A DNA stretch of 64,000 nt from Terriglobales bacterium (GTDB lineage: Bacteria > Acidobacteriota > Terriglobia > Bryobacterales > Bryobacteraceae): the NCBI GenBank assembly GCA_027485675.1, contig JAIXQP010000031.1, forward strand, positions 1 to 64,000. Direction: 5' to 3'. Below the pieces are notes generated by a model. It made no database searches and was not told the origin of the DNA. It saw only the letters and a list, made by a program, of their open reading frames with translations. The translations under genes were made by a program, and so were the position numbers. Of this stretch, positions 38,921 to 52,094 are shown piece by piece (the stretch's first letter is position 1; every line of letters starts with the position of its first letter).

Positions 38921-40174
38921 ATGAAGCGTTGGACACGGCGGACGGTATTGCGCGGAGCGGGGGTGGCGCTGGGGCTGCCGTGGCTCGAGTGCCGGGGGCA
39001 GGGCGGGGAAGCGCCCCGGCGGATGCTGTTGGTGGCGAACAACCTGGGGGTGCTGCCGAAGCCGTTCTTTCCGGAGGGGGCGGGGCGGGGATATGCGTTG
39101 TCGCCATACCTCGAGGAGTTGCGGGAGTTCCGGGAGGAGTTCACGGTGTTTAGCGGGTTATCGCATCCGGGCGTATCGGGGGGACATAGCGCGGACAACT
39201 GCTTGTTGACGGCGGCGCGGGGGGCGTTTAAGAGCGGGTTTCGAAATTCGATTTCGTTTGACCAGTTTGTGGCGGAGAAGCTGGGGCCGGTGACGCGGTT
39301 TTCGTCGTTGAACCTGGGGGTGAACATCGACAAGGGGAACCGGAGCTTGTCGTGGACGCGGGACGGGGTGCTGTTGCCGGCGGAGGATAGCGCGCCGAAG
39401 CTGTACGAACGGCTGTTTTTGCAGGGGGATGCCGAGGCGGTGGCGCGGCAGAGGCACCGCCTCGAGAGCCGGGGCAGCATCCTCGATACGCTGCGGGAGG
39501 AGACGCGGCGCTTCAGCGGGGAGATCGGCCGGGAGGACCGGGTGCGGCTGGAGCAGTATGTGACTTCGGTGCGGGAGGTGGAGGAACGGATGGCGGCGGC
39601 GCGGCTGTGGGAGGAGCGGCCGAAGCCGGCGGCGCCGGGGCCGATGCCGGAGGATATTCAGGACAAGAAGCTGTTTTTTGAGAAGTTCGGGTTGATGCTG
39701 GCGATGGGGGAGTTGGCGCTGGAGTCGGATTCGACGCGGATTGTGACGTTGATGGCGGATGCGTTTGTGACGCCGGTGTTGAAGCTGAACGAGAGCGAGT
39801 TATCGACGCAGAGTTACCACGGGTTATCGCATCACGGGCAGGACGAGGGTAAGGTGCGGCAGTTGGGGGAGATTGACCGGCAGCAGATGAAGTTATTGGC
39901 GAAGACGCTGGGCCGGCTGCGGGGGAAGGGGCTGCTCGAGCGAACGATGGTGTTCTACGGGAGTAACATGGGGGACGCGAATATACACGACAATACGAAC
40001 CTGCCGATTTTGCTGGCGGGAGGCGGGTTCCGGCATGGGCAGCACTTAGTGTTTTCGCGGGAGAACAATGCGCCGTTGTGTAACTTGTTTGTTTCGATGA
40101 TGCGGCGCATGGGGGTGGAAGGGGAGTCGTTTGGGAGCAGCAGCGGGGCGCTGCGGGGCTTGGAGTTGGTGTAG
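38921..40174 (+). CDS. DUF1552 family secreted protein
   Basis: The 417-residue protein starts at ATG 38921 with the twin-arginine-like signal MKRWTRRTVLRGAGVALGLP (RRTVLRG). It is a DUF1552 protein: LEELREFREEFTVFSGLSHP, GGHSADNCLLTAA, SISFDQFVAEKLG, EDIQDKKLFFEKFGLMLAMG, ALESDSTRIVTLM, SYHGLSHHGQDEGKVRQL and FYGSNMGDANIHDNTNLPIL. Some family members resemble sulfatase/phosphatase (alkaline-phosphatase-fold) proteins. It is always encoded with DUF1592 cytochromes, as here, with which it presumably works in the periplasm. The open frame upstream to 38804 is inside the DUF1592 gene. Confidence 0.9.
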   Translation: MKRWTRRTVLRGAGVALGLPWLECRGQGGEAPRRMLLVANNLGVLPKPFFPEGAGRGYALSPYLEELREFREEFTVFSGLSHPGVSGGHSADNCLLTAARGAFKSGFRNSISFDQFVAEKLGPVTRFSSLNLGVNIDKGNRSLSWTRDGVLLPAEDSAPKLYERLFLQGDAEAVARQRHRLESRGSILDTLREETRRFSGEIGREDRVRLEQYVTSVREVEERMAAARLWEERPKPAAPGPMPEDIQDKKLFFEKFGLMLAMGELALESDSTRIVTLMADAFVTPVLKLNESELSTQSYHGLSHHGQDEGKVRQLGEIDRQQMKLLAKTLGRLRGKGLLERTMVFYGSNMGDANIHDNTNLPILLAGGGFRHGQHLVFSRENNAPLCNLFVSMMRRMGVEGESFGSSSGALRGLELV

Positions 40175-40177
40175 GGG

Positions 40178-42244
40178 GTGACGTTCCGGATTCAGGGGCT
40201 CGATTGCGCGGAGGAGGTGGCCGTGCTGCGGCGGGAGGTGGGGCCGCTGGTGGGGGGTGCGGAGCGGCTGGCGTTTGACGTGCTGGGTGGCAGGATGACC
40301 GTGCTGGGCGAGGGGGTTCCGGTGGCGGTGGTGGTGGCGGCCGGGCGGAAGGCGGGAATGGTGGCGACGCTCGAGGGAGGGGCGCGGGAGGAGGCGCCGG
40401 AGGGGCGGGATTGGCGCACCGTTTTGATGGTGGCGAGCGGGGTAAGCGCGGCGGCGGGGTTTGGCCTAGAGTGGATGGGGGCGGATGGCAGGTGGGGCTA
40501 TGGGGCGGCCATTGTGTTGGGGACGGCGTTGGTATTGCCGAAGGCATGGCTGGCGCTGCGGCGGGGCAGGCCGGATATGAATCTGCTGATGGTGGTGGCC
40601 ATTGGCGGCGCGGTGGGGATTGGGGATTGGTTGGAGGGGGCGTCGGTGGCGTTTCTGTTTGCGCTGTCGTTGACGCTGGAGGCTTGGAGCGTGGGCCGGG
40701 CGCGGCGGGCGATTGGGGAGTTGTTGGACCTGGCGCCGCGGATGGTGCGGCTGGTGGGCGGGGAGGAGTTGGCGGCGGAGGCGGTGGCGGTGGGGAGCCG
40801 GTTTCAGGTGCGGCCGGGGGAGCGGATTGCGTTGGATGGGGAGGTGGAGAGTGGGATCAGCGAGGTGAATCAGGCGCCGATTACGGGGGAGAGTATGGCG
40901 GTGCGGAAGGAGGCGGGGGCGGTGGTGTATGCGGGGACGGTGAACGGCGGGGGAGCGCTGGTGGTGCGGTCGACGAAGCCGAGTGGGGATACGGCGCTGG
41001 CGCACATTGTGCGGTTGGTGGGGGAGGCGCAGCAGAAGAGGGCTCCGGCGAAGCGGTGGGTGGATCGGTTTGCGGCGGTGTATACGCCGGCGGTGCTGGG
41101 GTTGGCCGTGTTGGTGTTTCTGGTACCGGTGGTGGGGATGGGGTTGGGGGCGGCGGAGTGGTTCTATCAGGCGCTGGTGCTGCTGGTGATTGCGTGTCCG
41201 TGCGCGCTGGTGATTGCGACGCCGGTGGGGGTGGTGGCGGCGTTGACGGCAGCGGCGCGGGCGGGGGTGCTGGTGAAGGGTGGGGTGCATTTGGAGACGC
41301 TGGCGCGGGTGAAGGCGGTGGCGTTCGATAAGACGGGGACGTTGACGACGGGGCAACCGGAGGTGGTGGAGGTGGTGGCGTTAGCCGGGCATACGGAGGA
41401 GGAGTTACTGGAACGAGCCGTGGCCTTGGAGGCGCATAGCGACCATCCGATGGCGCGGGCGATTGTGGCGTATGGGTTAGCGCGGCGGATCGAGCCGTTG
41501 CCGGCGTCGGAGTTCACGATTTTGCCCGGGAAGGGGGCCGTGGGGAGCTGGCAGGGGAGGCGATTCTGGTTGGGCTCCCATCGCTATCTGGAGGAGCTTG
41601 GGCAGGAGACGCCGGAGATTCATGAGCGGCTCGAGGCTTTGGGGCGGAGCGGGCGGACGGTGGTGGTGGTGGGCAATGAGAGCCATGTTTGCGGATTTCT
41701 GGCGCTGGCGGATACGGTGCGGCCGGAGGCGGGGGCGGCGGTGCGGGAGTTGCTCGGGTTGGGGATGGAACGGGTGGTGATGCTTACGGGGGATAACCGG
41801 GGGACGGCGGAGGCGGTGGGGCGGGAGGCGGGAATCGGCGAGGTGGCGGCGGAGTTACTGCCAGCCGATAAGGTGCGGCTGGTGGAAGAGCTGGTGGGGC
41901 GGTACGGGTGCGTGGCGATGGTGGGGGACGGCATCAACGATGCGCCGGCTTTGGGGCGGGCGAGTGTGGGGATTGCGATGGGGGTAGCGGGGAGCGATAC
42001 GGCGATGGAGGCCGCGGATGTGGCGCTGCTGGCGGATGACTTGGGCAAGCTGCCGTGGTTGGTGCGGCACGGGCGGCGGATGATGGGGGTGATCCGGACG
42101 AACATCGGGCTGGCGTTGGGGGTGAAGGCTCTGTTCGTGGTGCTGACGTTTGGCGGGCATGGGTCGTTGTGGGCCGCGATTGGGGCGGACATGGGGATGT
42201 CGCTGTTGGTGATCTTCAACGCGCTGCGGTTGTTGCGGGGGTAG
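40178..42244 (+). CDS. Heavy-metal P1B-type ATPase (Zn/Cd/Pb efflux)
   Basis: The 688-residue pump starts at GTG 40178, 3 bp after the DUF1552 stop. It has an N-terminal HMA-like domain with a single metal-site cysteine (GLDCAEEV, Cys10), membrane helices, the CPC metal motif (IACPCALVIATPVG, near 340), the phosphorylation site DKTGTLTTG (near 385), an HP motif (HSDHPMARAI) and GDGINDAPALG (near 585). CPC with a DCAEE N-domain points to the ZntA/CadA group for Zn(II), Cd(II), Pb(II). It has no local metalloregulator. Confidence 0.92.
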   Translation: MTFRIQGLDCAEEVAVLRREVGPLVGGAERLAFDVLGGRMTVLGEGVPVAVVVAAGRKAGMVATLEGGAREEAPEGRDWRTVLMVASGVSAAAGFGLEWMGADGRWGYGAAIVLGTALVLPKAWLALRRGRPDMNLLMVVAIGGAVGIGDWLEGASVAFLFALSLTLEAWSVGRARRAIGELLDLAPRMVRLVGGEELAAEAVAVGSRFQVRPGERIALDGEVESGISEVNQAPITGESMAVRKEAGAVVYAGTVNGGGALVVRSTKPSGDTALAHIVRLVGEAQQKRAPAKRWVDRFAAVYTPAVLGLAVLVFLVPVVGMGLGAAEWFYQALVLLVIACPCALVIATPVGVVAALTAAARAGVLVKGGVHLETLARVKAVAFDKTGTLTTGQPEVVEVVALAGHTEEELLERAVALEAHSDHPMARAIVAYGLARRIEPLPASEFTILPGKGAVGSWQGRRFWLGSHRYLEELGQETPEIHERLEALGRSGRTVVVVGNESHVCGFLALADTVRPEAGAAVRELLGLGMERVVMLTGDNRGTAEAVGREAGIGEVAAELLPADKVRLVEELVGRYGCVAMVGDGINDAPALGRASVGIAMGVAGSDTAMEAADVALLADDLGKLPWLVRHGRRMMGVIRTNIGLALGVKALFVVLTFGGHGSLWAAIGADMGMSLLVIFNALRLLRG

Positions 42245-42250
42245 GTGGCG

Positions 42251-42937
42251 TCAGGGGGTACGGAAGCGGCGATGGAGGGCGGCGAAGGCCCAGACGCTGG
42301 CGGCGGCCAGGAACAGGGCGAGGAGGAGGAAGGGGACGGTGCGGCGTTCGAGGAAGGTGGAGCCGAGGTACACCGTGGCTACGGCATAGGGGAACTCGGC
42401 GATCAGGAGGGCCGCGAGGTACTTGCCGAACGGATAGCGGAGCAGACCCAGCAGGTAGCCCGGTACTTCCGAGGGGAGGGCGAGTTGGAGGAGCAGGACG
42501 AGGCCGAAGGGGGGACGGTGGGAGAGCAGGCCTTCGTAGCGTTCGAGCAGAGGCCGGGAGGCGATGGCGTAGACCACCTGGCGGCCCAGCAGCAGGCTGA
42601 TGCCGTAAGAGAGGACCCCACCGAGCGTCCAACCGAGCCAGAGCAGGAGGACACTCGCAGCTTGGCCCCAGGCGAGGATGGCAACCGGCACGAACGCGGC
42701 GCTGGAGACGAAGGCGAGCATGGCGGAGGCGGCGGCGAGAAGGACGAAGACGATTGGGCCGAGGACGGGGCGGTTTCGGATGATGGCTTCGGCCTGGGAG
42801 AAGAGTTCGAAGAGGAGGCCGTGCAGGGCGTCGGAATAGGCGAGGGCGGCGGCGAGGAGCGCGACGCAGAGCAGCAGCATGGCGCGCCGCGTGGCGGAGG
42901 CGAGAGGGGCGGGTACCAAGCAACCATTCTCAAGCAT
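42251..42937 (-). CDS. TVP38/TMEM64 (SNARE-associated) family membrane protein
   Basis: The 228-residue protein has about five membrane segments (MLLLCVALLAAALAY, GPIVFVLLAAASAMLAFVSS, VLLLWLGWTLGGVLSYGISL and others) and the family loop with LPSEVPGYLLGLLRYPFGKY, equivalent to the E/G..PSE..GY...G...-F-YL motif of TVP38/DedA proteins. DedA-superfamily members act as lipid scramblases or transporters. It converges with the P-type ATPase gene with 6 bp between the stops. Confidence 0.8.
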   Translation of the reverse strand: MLENGCLVPAPLASATRRAMLLLCVALLAAALAYSDALHGLLFELFSQAEAIIRNRPVLGPIVFVLLAAASAMLAFVSSAAFVPVAILAWGQAASVLLLWLGWTLGGVLSYGISLLLGRQVVYAIASRPLLERYEGLLSHRPPFGLVLLLQLALPSEVPGYLLGLLRYPFGKYLAALLIAEFPYAVATVYLGSTFLERRTVPFLLLALFLAAASVWAFAALHRRFRTP

Positions 42938-43067
42938 TTGCCGGGAGGCTGCCGAGGGCGGCGGCCGGGAGCGAAAACGGTGTTTTTCAATGGCGGCTTT
43001 TATTTCAAATTATTTCACTGGAAGATTCTTTCTTTGTCTGATAGATTTCTTATCCCGAGGAAAATTT

Positions 43068-43472
43068 ATGAGGGCAGAAGAGATCTCTGAGCTGCGCCGG
43101 AGAATGGTGGCGGCGACCGACTATTCCGAATTCCATCACTATTACGTGGCTAATTATTTCGAAAACGCCGGGTTTCGAAGCATGGGGCGACCGCTGAGTG
43201 CGCCCCTGGCGCGGCACTTTGCGCGCGTGTGTCTGGAACTCTACCTGGGGGGGCCGCCCAAGAAGCTGGTGGCGATCCAGGCGAATCTGACGGAGATTCG
43301 AGAGTTTGGGCTTGTCTATGGCGTCCTTTCGATTGGCGGCAAGCTTTGCTCGATCCTCTACTTCGACGACGTCGAACAGGGGATGATGTCCGTTATCGAG
43401 AACATGGAAACCCTGGATACCGAGTTCTTGCAGTTTCATTTGCAGCGTCCCGCGGGGGATAGGCCCAACTGA
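43068..43472 (+). CDS. Hypothetical protein with AT-rich leader
   Basis: The 134-residue protein starts at ATG 43068 after GAGGAAAATTT. It has no signal peptide or membrane segment: a helical, Arg/Glu-rich N-terminal half (MRAEEISELRRRMVAATDYS), ENAGFRSMGRPLSAPLARHF, then beta-type VYGVLSIGGKLCSILYFDDV and a final helix. I do not recognise the family. The 130 bp in front is distinctly AT-rich for this region and probably holds its promoter. Confidence 0.6.
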   Translation: MRAEEISELRRRMVAATDYSEFHHYYVANYFENAGFRSMGRPLSAPLARHFARVCLELYLGGPPKKLVAIQANLTEIREFGLVYGVLSIGGKLCSILYFDDVEQGMMSVIENMETLDTEFLQFHLQRPAGDRPN

Positions 43473-43550
43473 TTCGGCGGCCCTCGGGCCGTGTTACCCT
43501 CGTCATTCCTGTCTCTGTCTGCCAGGACCGAAAACCAGGAGACGATCGAA

Positions 43551-44303
43551 ATGTCCAGCCAGAAGCCGGGATGGTCCCGGCGCCGTTTGTTACACAGCGC
43601 TCCGGCGCTTCTTGCGGGAGGAAGCGTGCTTTCCGCGCAGACTCCCGCTCCGGGGACCCGGGCGCCCATTATCATTCCGCCGGCACCGGTGGCGATGCGG
43701 GAGCAGAAGCTGCTGCAGACGATTCCGATTCCGAAGCAATCCGGACGCGGGGTGATCGTGCTGCGGAATCAGCGCGTCAAGGTGATCAACCCGAGGGGGA
43801 AGCAGGTGGGCGACCTGTTTGCCTTTGCGCAGTATTCGGCCGAGGAGTTCATTGCGCCGGCGTTCACGATGACACGGAATCGGAACATCTACCTGCAAGT
43901 GGGCAAGGGGTTGATGAGCAATTACGGCAATCCGCTGCTGGTGCTCGAAGAGGACACGTCGGGCCGCAACGACCTGCTCTATCCGGCTTGCTCCGGCGCG
44001 CAGAAGCCCGGCATTCCGGCCAGTATTCCCAACTGCCGGGACAACATGCAGGCGGCGCTGCGCGCGATCAATTTTCCGGTGCCGAACCATCCGGAGATCG
44101 TCCATCCGCATAATCTGTTCCAGAACTCTCCCGTGATTGATCTGGATGGGAATATTGAGGTGCGGGAGCCGATCGCCAAGGCGGGGGACTACGTCGTGTT
44201 GCGGGCCCTTGAGAATGTGTGTGTCGTGGTGACCGCCTGTTCGTCGCCCTCCGTCGTGAACGGCAAGGAGCCGAAGGAGTTACTGATGGAGGTTTACGGT
44301 TAG
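43551..44303 (+). CDS. DUF1989 (urea-carboxylase-associated) family protein, exported type
   Basis: The 250-residue protein starts at ATG 43551 with a twin-arginine-like leader (GWSRRRLLHSAPALLAGGSV). The mature part is a DUF1989 domain: RGVIVLRNQRVKVINPRGKQ, VGDLFAFAQYSAEEFIAPAF, NPLLVLEEDTSGRNDLLYPA, CRDNMQAAL, HNLFQNSPVIDLDGNIEVRE and GDYVVLRALENVCVVVTACS. DUF1989 proteins accompany urea carboxylase or aminomethyltransferase systems and are usually cytoplasmic, so a leader peptide is unusual. No urea genes are nearby. It opens a rightward run that continues to 50.7 kb. Confidence 0.82.
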   Translation: MSSQKPGWSRRRLLHSAPALLAGGSVLSAQTPAPGTRAPIIIPPAPVAMREQKLLQTIPIPKQSGRGVIVLRNQRVKVINPRGKQVGDLFAFAQYSAEEFIAPAFTMTRNRNIYLQVGKGLMSNYGNPLLVLEEDTSGRNDLLYPACSGAQKPGIPASIPNCRDNMQAALRAINFPVPNHPEIVHPHNLFQNSPVIDLDGNIEVREPIAKAGDYVVLRALENVCVVVTACSSPSVVNGKEPKELLMEVYG

Positions 44304-44330
44304 CGCCCAACGGGTACACTGGAGGGCGTT

Positions 44331-46358
44331 ATGCAAAACAAGGCTTGTCTCCTCGTTTGGGCTCTGTCGATGGTCCCCGTGCTGCTTCCAGCGGCGGAGA
44401 TCCGGGCCGGTCATTCGCATAAAGGCGAAGCGTTTGACTCCGGGCCGAGAACCCGTCCGCAGGTGATGAGCCAGATTGGGAAGGTGCACTTTCCGATCAC
44501 CCACAAGAACCCGGAGGTGCAGCAATGGTTTAACCAAGGGAACACCTTGCTGCACTCCTTTTCGGACTTTGAAGCCGAACGGGCGTTCCGCTGGTGCGTG
44601 AAGCTCGAACCGGAGAATGCGATGTGCTACTGGGGCTTGGCGCGCGCGGCCGGGGACGAACGGAGCGTGCCGTTTATTCAAGAAGCCGCTAAACGCAAAG
44701 CCGGGGTGACGGAGAGGGAACGGCTCTACATCGAAGCGCTCGAAGCGCGGGAGCGGACGGACCGGTTGCGCGACCGGAACGACGATTATCGCGAGCGGAA
44801 TGTACGTTACAAGAAGATTCTCGAGACGCTGTGTCTGAAGTATCCGGAGGACGATGAGGCCCGGCTGCTGTTGGCGCTGGCGAACATGGGCGATGCGCGC
44901 TACGGAACCGAGCTGATTCTGCGCGAAGTGGAGAAGCGGCAACCGAATCATCCGGGCGTCCACCATTACCGGATCCATAACTGGAACTATCATGAGCCGG
45001 AGGCCGCGCTCGAGAGCTGCCAGCGTTACGGGGCGATTGCGCCGAACGTCGGCCACGCGCTCCATATGCCGGGGCATGTGTACGCCCAGGTGGGGATGTG
45101 GCAGGAGGCCGCGATCGCGATGGACGCGGCGACGCGGACGGAAGTGAAGAACATGCACGCGCAGCAGGTGTTTCCGTTCAACTACTGGAACTGGGGGCAC
45201 AACCGCCACTACTTGAGTTACATCCAGGAGCAGCTTGGCCTGCCGGATTTGGCCATCGCGGGAGGGCGGGAGTTGGTGAATGCTCCGCAGGATCCGAAGT
45301 CGAATGGCGAGGCGCCGTATAGCCCGCATTCGCAAGGCATCCGCTCGCTGGCGAGGACGCTCGTGAAGTACGAGCGCTGGAAGGAGTTGCTCGATGAGAA
45401 GACGATTCCGTGGCGGAAGTTGCCGGCGGATCAGTTATTGAAGGCGTATGTGCAGGCGCGCGCGCATTTCGCGCTGGGGCAGCGGGAAGAGGGGGAGAAG
45501 GCGATGGAGGCGCTCGAGAAGTTCGCCAAAGAGAAGGAGGTGGAGCGGTTGTACCCCTTGATGGCGATGGATCTGAAGGCGCGTCTAGCGTTTGCGAAGG
45601 GAGAGACGCTGCTGGGGCTGGGTCTTCTGAGTGAAGCGGCGGAGAAGCAGTACACCATGCAGATGGGAGACAACGATCCGCCCTCCTATCCGGAAGTGCT
45701 GTTCAATGCGCTAGGCCAGGCGTATCTCAACGCCGGGGCGAAGGATTTGGCGGTTGGGGCGTTTGAGAAGGCCTTGGTGCTGACGCGGAACGACCGGTTT
45801 GCGCTGGCGGGACTGGAGCGGGCAGGGAAGCCGCGGACGGTGACCTTGGCGAAGCCGCAGCGGGAATACCGGACGGAGGCGTTGCGGGAGTTCGGGCCGG
45901 ACCACTGGTCGCCATTCGCGGCGCCGGCGCTCGAGGTGGTGGATGCGGACGGAAAGACGCAGACGCTAGCGACGCAGAAGGGCCGGAACACAATTCTCGT
46001 CTTCTATCTGGGGAAGGAGTGTCCGCATTGTCTGAAGCAGCTGCGCGATTTACAAGGCAAGGCGGGAGAGTGGAAGCGGCTCGACACGGATGTGTTCGCC
46101 GTGAGCCCGAATGCGCCGGAGGCGAATAAGGCGTTGGGGAAAGAAGCGGCCTACCAGTCGATTCGTTTTTTGTCGGATGTCACGCGGGCGAATGCGAAAC
46201 GGTTTTTGGCTTACGACGATTTTGAAGAGATGGAGATTCACGCAACGATCCTGATCGATAAAGAGGGAAAGGTGCGGTGGTCGCGGATGGGTGGGGCTCC
46301 GTTTGAGGATATGAAGTTTTTGGCCGAGGAGATCGAGCGCATCCGCGAGTCCAAATAG
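44331..46358 (+). CDS. Secreted TPR protein with C-terminal thioredoxin-like (AhpC/TSA) domain
   Basis: The 675-residue protein has a signal peptide (LVWALSMVPVLLPAAE) and TPR-like helices at about 50-500 (QQWFNQGNTLLHSFSDFEAE, YWGLARAAGDE, HRYR-type HHYRIHNWNYHEPEAALE, HALHMPGHVYAQVGMWQEAA). The C-terminal redoxin fold (about 545-675) has ILVFYLGKECPHCLKQLRDL, whose CPHC is a redox-active CxxC, and ATILIDKEGKVRWSRMG. Such proteins are found in Acidobacteriota with copper- or thiol-related functions; the exact role is unknown. It ends at the possible GTG start of the ModABC gene. Confidence 0.82.
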   Translation: MQNKACLLVWALSMVPVLLPAAEIRAGHSHKGEAFDSGPRTRPQVMSQIGKVHFPITHKNPEVQQWFNQGNTLLHSFSDFEAERAFRWCVKLEPENAMCYWGLARAAGDERSVPFIQEAAKRKAGVTERERLYIEALEARERTDRLRDRNDDYRERNVRYKKILETLCLKYPEDDEARLLLALANMGDARYGTELILREVEKRQPNHPGVHHYRIHNWNYHEPEAALESCQRYGAIAPNVGHALHMPGHVYAQVGMWQEAAIAMDAATRTEVKNMHAQQVFPFNYWNWGHNRHYLSYIQEQLGLPDLAIAGGRELVNAPQDPKSNGEAPYSPHSQGIRSLARTLVKYERWKELLDEKTIPWRKLPADQLLKAYVQARAHFALGQREEGEKAMEALEKFAKEKEVERLYPLMAMDLKARLAFAKGETLLGLGLLSEAAEKQYTMQMGDNDPPSYPEVLFNALGQAYLNAGAKDLAVGAFEKALVLTRNDRFALAGLERAGKPRTVTLAKPQREYRTEALREFGPDHWSPFAAPALEVVDADGKTQTLATQKGRNTILVFYLGKECPHCLKQLRDLQGKAGEWKRLDTDVFAVSPNAPEANKALGKEAAYQSIRFLSDVTRANAKRFLAYDDFEEMEIHATILIDKEGKVRWSRMGGAPFEDMKFLAEEIERIRESK

Positions 46359-46370
46359 GTGGGCGAGAGC

Positions 46371-48968
46371 ATGGGGAAGTTGCGGGCGGTGCTGGTAGCG
46401 TTTTGGCTCGTGGCCGCGCTACCGGCGGCGCAGGGACAGAGCCTGACGGTCTCGGTGGCGTCGAGCTTACGGCCGGCGATGGAGGAGATCGCCCGGGCAT
46501 TCGAAGCGGAGCATCCCGGCGCGAACGTTGTTTTGAACTTTGGGGCTTCGGGCGCGCTGCGGCAGCAGATTGAGCAGGGGGCCCCGGTGGACGTTTTCTT
46601 GCCGGCAGCGTCGCGGCAGATGGACGAGTTGGAGCGGAAAGGATTGGTGGCAGCGGGAACGCGGCGGGACCTGCTGGGGAACGAAGTGGTGCTGATCGCG
46701 CCGGCCGGCTCCGCTCAGCCGCGCGATTTCGCGGGGTTGCTGAGCGGGGAGGTGCGTTTGCTCGCGCTGGGTGATCCGGCGAGCGTGCCGGCGGGAGAGT
46801 ACGGGCAGCAGGTGCTTCGTTCGCTCGGGTTGTGGGAGCGGGTTGAGCCACGGGTGGTGATGGCGAAGGACGTCCGGCAGGTTCTGACCTATGTGGAGTC
46901 CGGGGAGGCGGAGGCGGGCATTGTCTATGCCAGCGATGCTCGCGGATCGGGTCGCGTGCGCGTAGTGGCCACCGCGCCCGCGGGAAGCCATACGCCGATC
47001 GTCTATCCGGTGGCGGTGACCGCAGCGGCAAAGGCGCCGGCACTGGCCCGGGCGTTTGTGGAATTTCTTTCGCGCAGCGCCGCCGAGAGGGTGTTTCGAC
47101 GGTTCGGGTTCTTGCCGGGCGGGAGGACGGAGACGGCTGCACCGGTGTCCGGGGAGAAACCGTTGGACCTTTCGCCGCTCTGGATTTCGCTGCGGACTTC
47201 GCTGGTCGCCACGGCGCTGACGTTCGTGCTGGGATTAGCCGCGGCCTACGGGATGAACCGGTACCGCGGGAGGGCGCGGAGTTTCATCGACGGGGTTTTT
47301 ATCTTGCCGCTGGTGTTGCCTCCGACGGTGATTGGTTTTTTTCTTCTTCTGCTTTTCGGCCGGAATAGTGGGTTGGGGCAACTGCTGCAGGGGCTCGGCG
47401 TAACGATCGCGTTTTCCTGGCCGGCGACGGTGATTGCAGCGACGGTGGTGGCCTTTCCGATGATGTATCGCGCGTCGCTGGGAGCGCTCGAACAGGTGAC
47501 GCCAACCTTGTTGCAGGCGGCGCGGACGCTGGGCGCCTCCGAATGGCGGGTTTTTCAACGCGTCACGTTTCCGTTGGCCTGGCCGGGGATTCTGGCAGGA
47601 ACGGTGCTGGCGTTTGCGCGGGCGCTGGGGGAGTTTGGCGCCACGCTGATGCTGGCGGGGAACATTCCCGGCCAGACGCAGACGATGCCGGTGGCGATTT
47701 TCTTCGCGGCCGAGGGCGGTGAGATGAATCGGGCGCTGGGTTGGGTCTTGCTGATTGTGGCGGTTTCCTTGGTGGTGGTGACGGGGCTGGGATACTGGTC
47801 GCGGCAACGGCCTGCGAGAGGGTCTGCCAGCGCGTTGGCTGAGGCGGAGGAAAGTACCGCGGGGAGCGGGTTTCAGTTGGGACGCACTTCGCCGGCGGCG
47901 AGCAGCAAGGAGTTGCAGTTCTCGGCGGAAAAGCAGCTGGGCGGGTTTTCGCTCGCCGCTACGTATTCGGTGCGCGGCGGTCCGCTGGGGTTGCTGGGCG
48001 CGTCGGGGTCGGGAAAGAGCCTGTCGCTTCGTTGCATCGCGGGAATCGAGACGCCGGAGAGAGGCCGGATTGTTTTGAACGGGCGGGTGTTGTTTGACCG
48101 CGGCGCGGGAATCGATTTGCCGCCGGCTGAGCGCCGGATTGGTTATCTGTTTCAGGACTACGCATTGTTTCCGCATATCACGGTGGCGGAGAACGTCGCG
48201 TTCGGATTGCACGGCATGGCGGAGGGGGAGCAGGACGCGCGCGTTGCCGAAGCGCTCCGGTTGGTTCGTCTGGAGGGGCTGCGCGAACGCTATCCGGCGG
48301 AGCTGTCGGGCGGGCAGCGGCAGCGAGCCGCGTTGGCGCGGGCGCTGGCGACGCATCCGGATGCGTTGCTGCTGGACGAGCCATTTTCGGCGCTCGATCC
48401 GCATTTGCGGAGGCAGTTAGAGAATCAGCTGCGGGAGGCTTTACGGGAGTACGAGGGCGTGGTGGTCTTCGTCACGCACGATATGGAGGAGGCGTTCCGA
48501 TTCTGCGAGGAGTTGGTGGTGCTTGAAGGGGGTGAGGTGATTGCGGCGGGGCCGAAGCGGAACCTGTTCGAACGACCGGGCACGACGGCGGCGGCGAGAC
48601 TGACGGGGTGTAAGAACATCCTGGCGGCGGTGGTCGAAGCGAGCGGACGGATCCACTTGCCGCAGTTCGGCATCTCGTTGACGGCGGCGGATGAGATGAG
48701 AACAGACGTGACCCATGTGGGGATTCGGGCTCGTCATTTGCGTCTGCTGGAGGCGGAGAGTGGGAAGGCGAACGTGTTTCGGTGCTGGCTGCGGGAGACC
48801 CGCGAGTCGCCGCACGAGATGACGCTATACCTACAGTTGAGGGAGGGAGCCGGTGAGCCGCATTTGGAGATGCAGATGGCCAAGGAGGAGTGGCGCGCGC
48901 TCGAAGCGAGGCCGCAGCCGTGGTTGTTAGAAATAGCTCCCGAAAGGTTGATCCCTCTGGCGGGGTAA
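46371..48968 (+). CDS. modABC: Single-chain molybdate ABC transporter ModA-ModB-ModC
   Basis: One uninterrupted frame (865 residues from ATG 46371, or 869 from GTG 46359) encodes all three parts. ModA: signal peptide, SLTVSVASSLRPAMEEIARA, FGASGALRQQIEQGAPVDVF. ModB permease: SLRTSLVATALTFVLGLAAA, GVFILPLVLPPTVIGFFLLL, EAA loop AARTLGASEWRVFQRVTFPL, ALGEFGATLMLAGN. ModC ATPase: Walker A GASGSGKS near 542, LSGGQRQRAALARAL near 645, LLLDEPFSALDP near 665, His-switch VFVTHDMEEA, then a TOBE-like tail. These are normally three proteins. The chain topology requires ModA to be tethered outside the membrane. It imports molybdate or tungstate. No molybdenum cofactor genes or ModE are in the window. 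Confidence 0.92.
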   Translation: MGKLRAVLVAFWLVAALPAAQGQSLTVSVASSLRPAMEEIARAFEAEHPGANVVLNFGASGALRQQIEQGAPVDVFLPAASRQMDELERKGLVAAGTRRDLLGNEVVLIAPAGSAQPRDFAGLLSGEVRLLALGDPASVPAGEYGQQVLRSLGLWERVEPRVVMAKDVRQVLTYVESGEAEAGIVYASDARGSGRVRVVATAPAGSHTPIVYPVAVTAAAKAPALARAFVEFLSRSAAERVFRRFGFLPGGRTETAAPVSGEKPLDLSPLWISLRTSLVATALTFVLGLAAAYGMNRYRGRARSFIDGVFILPLVLPPTVIGFFLLLLFGRNSGLGQLLQGLGVTIAFSWPATVIAATVVAFPMMYRASLGALEQVTPTLLQAARTLGASEWRVFQRVTFPLAWPGILAGTVLAFARALGEFGATLMLAGNIPGQTQTMPVAIFFAAEGGEMNRALGWVLLIVAVSLVVVTGLGYWSRQRPARGSASALAEAEESTAGSGFQLGRTSPAASSKELQFSAEKQLGGFSLAATYSVRGGPLGLLGASGSGKSLSLRCIAGIETPERGRIVLNGRVLFDRGAGIDLPPAERRIGYLFQDYALFPHITVAENVAFGLHGMAEGEQDARVAEALRLVRLEGLRERYPAELSGGQRQRAALARALATHPDALLLDEPFSALDPHLRRQLENQLREALREYEGVVVFVTHDMEEAFRFCEELVVLEGGEVIAAGPKRNLFERPGTTAAARLTGCKNILAAVVEASGRIHLPQFGISLTAADEMRTDVTHVGIRARHLRLLEAESGKANVFRCWLRETRESPHEMTLYLQLREGAGEPHLEMQMAKEEWRALEARPQPWLLEIAPERLIPLAG

Positions 48969-48988
48969 GCTGATAAAATTTTGGTCAG

Positions 48989-50113
48989 ATGTTTAGCCGC
49001 GCAATCCCCCTATGCTGCGCCTTGCTTCTGGCAACCGCGATTGTCTTGCCCGCTCAGAAGAAGAAGAGCAAGAAAGAGAAGAAAGAAGAGATCACGCAGG
49101 TGCACGAGGTGCCGCCGGATCCACCAGCGGCGGTGACCGTGGAGACGGACCGATTGGAGTTCATCGTTTCGCCGATGTCGGGCAAGGGGCTGCTTTCGGC
49201 GCAGGTGCGGGACGCGATCAAGGCGTTGAAGTCGCAGACGAAGGGCGGGCAGATTGTGAAGCTGCGCGCGTTTGTGGCGGGCACGGGCGATTTGCGGCGC
49301 GTGCAGGCGATTGTCAGCGAGGAGTTCAGCGAGAAGAAGCTGCCGATTCCGACGCTGTCGACGATTCAGGTGGGCCTGTTGCCGATGGAAGGCGCGCAGG
49401 TGGTGATGGAAGCCGTGGTGGTGGCGAAGAAGCCGGTGAATGCGCATGGCCTGGGCTTGCTCTCGGGAATGGGCGGCTATGGCAAAGAGGAGCCGGATCA
49501 GGTGTTGCCGATGCTCGACCGCGCGTTGGCGGATTTGGCGAAGGCGTCACAAGTGGCCGGCAGCTACAAGAGCGATGTGCTGAAGGTGACGTGTATGTTG
49601 TCGTCCCTCGCGCAGATCGCGGAGGTGCGGACCCGGGTGGCGACGGCGTTTCCTTCGGCGATCTTTACGGCGTTTCAGGCGCAGCGCGGGCACGGGGTTT
49701 CGTTGGCGGAATGTGAAGGGGTGGTCCGGTTGACGAAGGCGCCGGCACAGCCGGTTGCGTTTCTGAATCCCGAGGATATGCAGCCTTCGCCGCGCTTCTC
49801 GAAGTTTGTGCTGGTGAACGCTCCGCGGTTGGTGCTGACAGGAACGCAGGTGGCGTTCAACTTCGAGGAGAACGATGTGCGGCTGGCGTTTCAGCGGATG
49901 GCGAAGGTCCTTGAAGGGCAGAAGTCGGGTATGAAGCAGGTAGTGTTTTCGAATCTCTATCCGATCTCGAACCGGATTCTGGAGACGGCGCGCAAGGTGC
50001 GGTTTGAGTTCTTTGATGCGGCAAAACCGCCAGCGAGTACAGCGCTGGTGTTTGAAGGGTTGCCGAGCATGGATGCTTCGCTGGCGATTGAGTTGGTGGC
50101 GGTTCCGCAATGA
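48989..50113 (+). CDS. Secreted protein with two Rid (YjgF)-like domains
   Basis: The 374-residue protein has a signal peptide (CCALLLATAIVLPAQ) followed by a lysine cluster (KKKSKKEKKEE). Two Rid-like regions follow: about 52-155, ending ALKSQTKGGQIVKLRAFVAG...LPIPTLSTIQVGLLPMEGAQ-VVMEAVVVAKK, and about 160-372, with GSYKSDVLKVTCMLSSLAQI and a final ASTALVFEGLPSMDASLAIE-LVAV. Rid proteins deaminate reactive enamines or imines, using an Arg in the (S/T)RxxV region; an obvious equivalent is not clear here, so catalysis is doubtful. The last 4 bp overlap the methyltransferase start. Confidence 0.68.
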   Translation: MFSRAIPLCCALLLATAIVLPAQKKKSKKEKKEEITQVHEVPPDPPAAVTVETDRLEFIVSPMSGKGLLSAQVRDAIKALKSQTKGGQIVKLRAFVAGTGDLRRVQAIVSEEFSEKKLPIPTLSTIQVGLLPMEGAQVVMEAVVVAKKPVNAHGLGLLSGMGGYGKEEPDQVLPMLDRALADLAKASQVAGSYKSDVLKVTCMLSSLAQIAEVRTRVATAFPSAIFTAFQAQRGHGVSLAECEGVVRLTKAPAQPVAFLNPEDMQPSPRFSKFVLVNAPRLVLTGTQVAFNFEENDVRLAFQRMAKVLEGQKSGMKQVVFSNLYPISNRILETARKVRFEFFDAAKPPASTALVFEGLPSMDASLAIELVAVPQ

Positions 50114-50733
50114 TCGAAGGGCGGGACCTGTACGATCCGGAGCGGCCGCTCGATTGGTTTGAGGCGTTGTATCAGAAAGCCGATGGCCAGATGGGGGAGA
50201 TTCCGTGGGGAGATGGTGAGCCCAACCCGAATCTGGTGATCTGGTGCGAGAGGGAAGGCCGGCCGCGGCGCGGCGAACGCGTGTTGGTGGTGGGTTGCGG
50301 ATTGGGGGATGACGCGGAGTACCTGGCGGGCCGAGGCGCGGCGGTGACGGCGTTCGATTTGTCGGCGACGGCGATTGCGTGGTGCCAGAAGCGGTGGCCG
50401 GATTCGGCGGTGCGCTATGTGCAGGCGAATCTGCTGGAGGCGGAGTGGGGCGAAGGCTTCGATTTGGTCGTGGAGATCTACACGCTGCAAGCGATGCCTC
50501 CGGAGGTGCGCGCGCTGGCTTACGCGAAGTTGGCGGCGGCCGTGAAGGGAGAGCTGCTGGTGATCTGCCGCGGACGAGATGAGGCGGATGACCCGGGCGG
50601 CTTGCCGTGGCGGCTGACGAAAGCGGAGATAGAGAACGGGCTCACGGGACTGGAGTTGGCGGCGTTTGAGGATGTCGCAGATCCCGTGAAGGTGGGGACG
50701 CGGCGATTCCGGGCGGTCTGGAAGAAGCGCTAG
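50110..50733 (+). CDS. SAM-dependent methyltransferase, TPMT-like
   Basis: The 207-residue class I methyltransferase has LYDPERPLDWFEALYQKADG and IPWGDGEPNPNLVIWCEREG at the N-terminus, then the S-adenosylmethionine motif VLVVGCGLGDDAEYLAGRGA, AVTAFDLSATAIAWC and FDLVVEIYTLQAMPPEV. The pattern is close to thiopurine methyltransferase-like small-molecule methylases. It is coupled to the Rid gene by an ATGA overlap. Its stop overlaps the convergent amidohydrolase stop by 4 bp. Confidence 0.86.
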   Translation: MIEGRDLYDPERPLDWFEALYQKADGQMGEIPWGDGEPNPNLVIWCEREGRPRRGERVLVVGCGLGDDAEYLAGRGAAVTAFDLSATAIAWCQKRWPDSAVRYVQANLLEAEWGEGFDLVVEIYTLQAMPPEVRALAYAKLAAAVKGELLVICRGRDEADDPGGLPWRLTKAEIENGLTGLELAAFEDVADPVKVGTRRFRAVWKKR

Positions 50734-52094
50734 TTCAGCGACTTCGAAATCCGCTGGGCGTAGGCGCGGGCGGCGGCGAGGACGCGGGCGCGGGCGAGGG
50801 TTTGCGGTATGCGCTGGCGGACGACGACGCGGCCGTTGATGACGACGTCCTGTACGTCGGAGCCTTTGAGGGCGTAGACGAGCGCCGAGTAGACATTGAA
50901 GAGCGGCACGGCTTGCGGCTCGGTCATCGCGACAGTGATGAGGTCGGCGCGCTTGCCGGATTCGATAGAGCCGATCTCCTTCTGCAGGCCGAGCACACGG
51001 GCGCCGTCGATGGTGGCCATGGCGAAGAGCTTGGCGGCGGGCAGCGCGGTGGGATCGTTGGCGGTGACTTTGGCGAGTTTGCCGGCGAGGTCCATCTCTT
51101 CGAAGAGATTGAGATCGTTGTTGGATCCGGCGGGTCCGTCGGGACCTAAGCCGAGGGCGACGTCCAGGCGGAGAAGTTTGAGCACGGGGGCGATGCCGCT
51201 CGCCAGTTTCATATTGCTGCTGGGGCAATGGGCGACGCCGACGTTGCGTTTGGCGAGGGTGGCGATGTCCGCGTCGTCAAGCCAGACGCCGTGGGCGGCG
51301 ACGGTTCTGCCATTTAAGACGCCCAGCTTTTCGAGGGCTTGCGTGGGGGAGAGGCCGCGCTGCTTTTGGGTATCGTCGTTCTCCTTCTTGGTCTCGGAGA
51401 GATGGATAACGAGCGGGGCGCCGTACTTGTTGGCGAGGGCGCGGGAGGCTTGGAGGGTTTCGTCCGAGTTCGTATAGATGGCGTGGGGGGCGACGGCGGC
51501 GGTGATAAGGGGGTCGCCGGCGAACTGCTTGAGGAAGGCTTCGGCGCGCTTCAAGGCATCGGCAGGAGTCTTCGCGTCGGGGACGGGGAAGCCGATGATG
51601 GTTTGGCCGAGGACGGCGCGCATGCCGGCTTTGCGGGTGGCTTCGGCGATGACCTCTTCGAAGTAGTACATGTCGGTGTAGGTCGTGGTGCCGGAGAGGA
51701 GCATTTCGAGGACGGCGAGGTCGGTGCCGACGCGGACGAATTCCGGGTTGACGTTTTTGGCTTCGGCGGGGAAGATGTAGCGTTCGAGCCAGTCCTGGAG
51801 GCGGAGATCGTCGGCGATGCCGCGGAGCAGCGTCATGGGCGCGTGGGTGTGGGTGTTGATGAGACCGGGGGCGAGGATGGCGTCGGGGCGGTTGATGCGT
51901 TGCTTGGAGCGGTGGGCTTTGAGGATTTCGGCGGCGGGGCCGACGGCGACGATGCGGTCCTCTTCGATGGCGACGGCGCCGTTTTCGATGACGCGGCGAT
52001 TGGCGTCCATGGTGACGACGTAGCGGGCGGTGATGACGAGGTCGGCGGCGCTGAGCGCGGTGACGCAGAGGAGACTAGCGAAGAAACGGATCAT
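50730..52094 (-). CDS. Amidohydrolase, MTA/S-adenosylhomocysteine deaminase-like, with signal peptide
   Basis: The 454-residue protein starts at ATG 52094 (the frame is open to 52604 only through the repeat array). It has a short signal-peptide-like start (FFASLLCVTALSAAD) and then the amidohydrolase core: LAPGLINTHTHAPMTLLRGI (metal HxH), AVAPHAIYTNSDETL, LVIHLSETKKE, VAAHGVWLDDADI and ALGLGPDGPAGSNNDLNLFE (metal Asp region). This matches the MtaD/SsnA group that deaminates methylthioadenosine, S-adenosylhomocysteine or related adenosines. Export of such an enzyme is unusual. It fits the purine/pyrimidine salvage cluster on the same strand further right. Confidence 0.86.
   Translation of the reverse strand: MIRFFASLLCVTALSAADLVITARYVVTMDANRRVIENGAVAIEEDRIVAVGPAAEILKAHRSKQRINRPDAILAPGLINTHTHAPMTLLRGIADDLRLQDWLERYIFPAEAKNVNPEFVRVGTDLAVLEMLLSGTTTYTDMYYFEEVIAEATRKAGMRAVLGQTIIGFPVPDAKTPADALKRAEAFLKQFAGDPLITAAVAPHAIYTNSDETLQASRALANKYGAPLVIHLSETKKENDDTQKQRGLSPTQALEKLGVLNGRTVAAHGVWLDDADIATLAKRNVGVAHCPSSNMKLASGIAPVLKLLRLDVALGLGPDGPAGSNNDLNLFEEMDLAGKLAKVTANDPTALPAAKLFAMATIDGARVLGLQKEIGSIESGKRADLITVAMTEPQAVPLFNVYSALVYALKGSDVQDVVINGRVVVRQRIPQTLARARVLAAARAYAQRISKSLN

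Follow-up and report, generated by a model that had tools for sequence, protein, structure and literature searches.

A molybdate ABC importer probably encoded as one chain in a small group of Acidobacteriota

All parts of a probable molybdate importer lie in one open frame

The stretch of DNA analysed here, hereafter the window, comprises 64,000 nucleotides of a contig from a Terriglobales bacterium. Positions 46371-48968 on its + strand form a single open frame, which runs from an ATG at 46371 to a stop codon at 48966-48968 and encodes a protein of 865 amino acids, here called ModABC. An in-frame GTG is located upstream of this ATG at 46359. Along the chain, a signal peptide is followed by ModA, a five-helix ModB, a ModC-type ATPase and a β-rich tail. 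The preliminary description of the window had read binding protein, permease and ATPase in the order A-B-C from one frame, and both the uninterrupted frame and Pfam matches above the curated cut-offs for all three parts agree with this reading. Six further fused genes were found in relatives (see below), and the counts given out of seven refer to this whole set.

The signal peptide (residues 1-22; 46371..46436, + strand) was read by eye as one hydrophobic stretch at residues 4-22, with the N-termini of the other six fused proteins aligned; a signal peptide had also been noted before. No lipobox was seen by eye within residues 1-22. The ModA domain follows at residues 23-248 (46437..47114). It matches Pfam SBP_bac_11 at residues 25-247 with 219.5 bits (curated cut-off 25) and passes the NCBIfam modA profile TIGR01256 at residues 30-246 (213.1 vs 62.5 bits). 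The candidate ligand positions S32, S60, A141, V168 and Y186 are invariant in all seven proteins; from a comparison by eye, we take them to be the equivalents of S12, S39, A125, V152 and Y170 of E. coli ModA. A tether (residues 249-267; 47115..47171) leads to the ModB transmembrane domain at residues 268-480 (47172..47810), for which Pfam BPD_transp_1 (residues 286-471, 72.4 bits vs a curated cut-off of 26.4) and NCBIfam modB TIGR02141 (residues 271-478, 237.4 vs 182.6 bits) were both above their cut-offs. The EAA loop noticed earlier reads AARTLG in six of the seven proteins and AGRTLG in the alignment of the seventh (L034).

Behind a second linker (residues 481-511; 47811..47903) lies the ATPase domain at residues 512-748 (47904..48614). 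Pfam ABC_tran matches at residues 536-672 (109.6 bits vs a curated cut-off of 25), whereas the cut-off of the NCBIfam modC profile TIGR02142 was missed (210.6 vs 285.05 bits), and the CysA and PotA types of the NCBIfam profiles score about equally. We call this part ModC-type by its position and its partners and do not file it as an equivalog. The Walker A, Walker B and signature (LSGGQ) strings described before are present in all seven proteins, as are the Q-loop, D-loop and H-loop. The C-terminal β domain, of regulatory type, occupies residues 749-865 (48615..48965). The fold agrees with its earlier classification as TOBE-like: in a fold search, residues 510-865 of the model aligned, up to residue 865, with ATPases of the CysA/MalK/FbpC type including their tails. 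Among sequence families, Pfam reports no counterpart of the tail up to E 10 when the HMMER filters are on. Fold matches were obtained for ModA and for the ATPase with its tail; of the 50 that each of two fold searches lists, none is a ModB chain, and such parts are barely tested in these searches.

The fusion is conserved and appears to have arisen once

The search for A-B-C fusions in Acidobacteriota genomes that had been suggested for this locus gave 12 matches at 1e-150 among the 257 genomes of the order. Seven of these genomes, belonging to two genera, carry the fusion in one frame: the window's own genome, five others of its genus and one of genus g47. In the remaining five (genera g73, g28 and g62), ModBC occupies one frame and modA another. 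Within the genus, the fusion is found in 6 of 19 genomes. Nine others (loci L113-L121 and L124-L126) carry a separate ModB (44-50% identical) and a separate ModC (36-44%) instead, which are more distant than the ModBC of the nearest unfused relatives, and four carry neither, two of them being less than 65% complete. At E 1e-40, no genome of the genus combines the fusion with this separate ModB.

Among named records, we found fused genes in Candidatus Sulfopaludibacter (L032) and at five further loci (L033-L037), which makes six of the 80 loci kept. Since five of these six equal loci from the genome search and L112 equals L035, the number of distinct fused genes is seven. Outside the signal peptide they are 59-97% identical to each other, with L035 and L036 as the closest pair. 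Among the best 80 of 331 relatives, A, B and C share a frame at six loci; A stands apart from BC at 22, all three are apart at 43, a modA match is lacking at eight and a modC match at one.

A tree of 80 loci was computed on the three domains, leaving the linkers out; in it, a branch with an SH-aLRT of 98 separates the seven fused genes from all other loci. This was a quick tree of 80 rows without bootstrap, in which four fused rows were flagged for odd composition. Beforehand, 12 named copies or near-copies had been removed, as had mixed-strand loci and those without a match for a domain or 75% of it; L016 was kept as an exception to the rule on domain completeness. The distribution of the fusion on the tree requires one change, compared to a mean of 6.8 after shuffling, with none of 500 shuffles as low. 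Taken together, these results confirm both the A-B-C fusion and its conservation, and the branching of the sequences suggests a single origin within the family.

All three domains are under purifying selection. Mean pN/pS among the seven genes is lowest in ModB (0.20), followed by the ATPase domain (0.30), ModA (0.38) and the tail (0.50); the A-B tether has 0.75, the signal peptide 0.81 and the B-C linker 1.04. With pS at ∼0.6, near saturation, and linkers this short, the ratios are rough. The tether comprises 18 residues in three genes and 19 in four, its sequence varies, and the model gives it low pLDDT at residues 252-265. The B-C linker varies between 29 and 34 residues, and linker lengths change in whole codons only.

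The gene order around the fusion is partly kept. A gene for a TPR-redoxin protein (44331-46358) ends 12 bases before the modABC ATG, but among the fused loci it adjoins the fusion only in the window and in L032; the L033 sequence extends only ∼2 kb upstream. The two genes could possibly form an operon, with no obvious link to molybdenum. Directly downstream of modABC lies a gene of the L-PSP family (48989-50113), which is also found beside the fusion in L032, L035, L036 and L037 (83-92% identity) and was not seen in L033 and L034. No Rfam family matched within 40000-52000 at gathering thresholds, and therefore no known riboswitch is present there.

Fusions were not detected outside the clade

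We then looked at how far the arrangement extends. In a sample of 396 genomes of the phylum, nine matched at 1e-100, and the only stop-free A-B-C match was that of the window's own genome. None was found in samples of the phyla of the cyanobacterium Mastigocoleus (292 genomes, 83 matched at 1e-100), of the Bacillota member Geosporobacter (348 genomes, 31 matched at 1e-110) and of Desulfobulbus (198 genomes, 13 matched at 1e-80). At these strict thresholds, there is no A-B-C fusion outside the clade in the samples of Acidobacteriota and three other phyla. The wide searches used E-values between 1e-60 and 1e-150, and scored only two to four candidates per genome, so that distant independent fusions may exist, for example in Pseudomonadota, Actinomycetota or metagenomes.

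Several candidates were rejected. Cyanobacterial open frames of ∼870-1030 owe their length to stops counted as read through. None of 14 cyanobacterial regions that were read directly, most of them chosen for long frames, was fused: nine have modA apart from a one-frame modBC, four have all genes apart, and one (L156) has no modA match. L055 contains stops between modA and modBC, and L115, a candidate A-B fusion (match 195-477, frame 530), has no ModA match upstream of ModB. Plasmids gave no fusion either: of 126 records matched at 1e-60, 20 of them listed, two span 80% or more of the query, each with separate modA and modBC genes. In some cyanobacterial and Desulfosporosinus loci (L060, L073, L085, L086, L088), ∼0.8-1.7 kb lie between the modA and modB frames.

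A possible origin from an overlapping gene pair

Full-length ModBC is described in a 2011 paper as seen only in cyanobacteria and algae (PMC3627308). The protein of Anabaena variabilis treated there likewise has ModB and ModC in one chain and in the same domain order, whereas its modA is separate and reportedly located 2.7 Mb away (PMC4284476). In long matches, cyanobacterial ModBC is ∼46-54% identical to the fused protein. A fused modBC beside a separate modA also occurs in many Acidobacteriota loci, beyond cyanobacteria and algae (L014-L018, L041, L043-L047, L051, L052, L054, L056, L071, L072, L083, L127, L128). Such modA/modBC pairs (L014-L018, L041 and others), which share the fused ModBC, are the closest to modABC in the tree. 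ModABC therefore goes a step beyond the ModBC fusion in this clade. The preliminary description would have been contradicted by close relatives with three separate genes, but the nearest unfused relatives have modA and a fused modBC.

In five unfused loci of the family, modA ends in its own stop, which overlaps the probable start of modBC in another frame: GTGA in L014, L015 and L016, ATGA in L018 and TGATG in L017. This reading takes the codon in the overlap to be where modBC probably starts; the two frames differ there. From the last ModA motif (GF) to DLSPLWIS, the window has 18 residues compared to nine in L014, both gene ends counted. Joining therefore took a frame change as well as extra codons. 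The overlap in relatives suggests how the join arose: in an ancestor whose modBC was already fused and overlapped with modA, a change of frame and about nine extra codons could have joined the two genes once.

Topology and proposed mechanism

The model of ModABC contains five ModB helices. A plain hydropathy scan (19-residue mean of at least 1.6) detects helix 1 in only three of the seven proteins and, in L034, does not find the fourth; the count of five helices is therefore based on the model. The loop that follows helix 1 is positively charged, with four K/R and one D/E, margins included. With five helices and a C-terminus at the ATPase, ModB would have its N-terminus outside and its C-terminus inside. 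The ModB domain matches that of the solved archaeal ModB2C2-A transporters, which have a related permease and ATPase on separate chains, but the archaeal ModB aligns only from residue 81 (3d31) or 80 (2onk). The ModB of the fused chain thus lacks the first part of archaeal ModB, ∼80 N-terminal residues. A secreted ModA can precede only a permease whose first helix starts outside, and a ModB that starts outside would leave room for ModA immediately in front. Provided that the model is right, placing ModA before ModB and ModC behind it requires no change of topology. The predicted structure is a monomer with a pTM of 0.59, and the relative placement of domains in it is not to be relied on.

Based on these observations, we propose the following mechanism. 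The signal peptide would send ModA to the periplasm. From there, a flexible tether of ∼19 residues would lead into the first ModB helix, and a second linker from ModB to the ATPase and its tail, which may regulate transport. Two chains would dimerise through ModB and ModC, giving ModB2, ModC2 and two tethered ModA domains that take turns at, or compete for, a single docking site, like those of GlnPQ and OpuA. By analogy to these systems, a homodimer with two tethered ModA domains at one pore is the most likely arrangement. We consider it likely that this one gene encodes a complete type I molybdate importer of that form. With somewhat less confidence, we favor the view that the one-chain homodimer has exactly two ModA per complex, a millimolar local concentration of ModA and no excess of free binding protein, with delivery that is possibly cooperative.

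The covalent link between binding and transmembrane domains that GlnPQ and OpuA have is predicted for ModABC by the single frame. In OpuA, the binding domain comes after the transmembrane domain. Joining a binding protein to a permease is also said to have been achieved for maltose, in the MalE-MalF fusion attributed to Licht (2019). GlnPQ (PMC8025302) is a homodimer in which 19 residues link SBD2 to the transmembrane domain, close to the 18-19 residues of ModABC, whose dimer is proposed by likeness; GlnPQ differs by its two tandem binding domains and by transporting amino acids. OpuA has two tethered binding domains that serve one homodimeric translocator (PMC11065425, PMC8199443), as we suppose for ModABC. 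These domains are reported to act cooperatively at a local concentration of ∼4 mM, and a state with one docked binding domain was seen by cryo-EM (PMC11065425); OpuA differs in its substrate, glycine betaine, and in its gating by ionic strength. The ergothioneine importer EgtUBC also combines binding and transmembrane domains in one chain, but the binding domain comes second, and the system is described as type II (PMC9732360). In all three systems the ATPase (GlnQ, OpuAA, EgtUA) is a separate chain, unlike in ModABC.

The fixed 1:1:1 stoichiometry proposed in the preliminary description holds only if neither an internal start nor cleavage occurs. Ribosomes might also start just ahead of ModB, which would yield a separate ModBC and a mixture of chains with and without ModA. 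A possible TTG start at 47163..47165 (+ strand) in the window is preceded by GGGGAG six bases upstream (47151-47156), and L032 has an ATG at the matching codon with GGTGAG at the same distance. An in-frame GTG is found at 47145-47147 of the window, and in unfused relatives modBC begins a few codons ahead of the TTG position. However, TTG generally initiates weakly, and the remaining five fused genes have TGG, TTC or ATC at the matching codon, so that the start is not conserved; we therefore regard such dual products as unlikely.

Slightly less likely is an importer whose main substrate is another oxyanion, for instance tungstate or sulfate. The scores of the ATPase part would permit this, being below the ModC cut-off and about as high for the CysA and PotA types, and ModA proteins bind tungstate too (PMC9171197). 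Against it stand the ModA and ModB models passed, the conserved ModA ligand positions and the molybdoenzyme families in the genome: PF00384 occurs over its cut-off at two loci (one as two matches), with one further match below, and MoCoBD_1 has five matches over its cut-off. At E 0.001, the ModA part of ModABC (P0001) has no further match in the genome. We therefore suppose molybdate to be the main substrate of ModABC, which probably also takes tungstate.

Still less probable is a chain that is made whole and from which ModA is cut off in the periplasm to work as a free binding protein. The low model confidence of the A-B linker, which is probably disordered, would suit a cleavage site, but a mere cleavage site needs no near-constant length, such as the 18-19 residues kept in seven genes while the tether sequence varies. 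Finally, a decaying fused gene or a sequencing error that merges three genes, the refutation foreseen in the preliminary description, has next to no probability: the named relatives are mostly draft MAGs, in which single-base indels can merge frames, but the same join in seven distinct genes from different species genomes rules out assembly error, and linker changes in whole codons and purifying selection in all three domains also argue against this reading.

Implications of a one-chain importer

Among the matches listed in a search of the open-access literature, as far as their text was available, we found no description of a fused ModABC chain and no one-chain ABC importer. Importers tend to make their binding protein in excess (PMC9045158), and the tethered homodimer proposed for ModABC would give up this usual excess of free binding protein. 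Importers with tethered domains have been used to ask how many binding domains are needed per pore and whether they cooperate. A natural all-in-one chain would fix the ratio of the components by genetics and would make mixed-dimer experiments simple, with one gene and two tags, while the close unfused relatives permit a before-and-after comparison of one gene-joining event. We conclude that a small group of Acidobacteriota relatives has in common a fused gene for a molybdate ABC importer, whose product probably works as a pair of chains.
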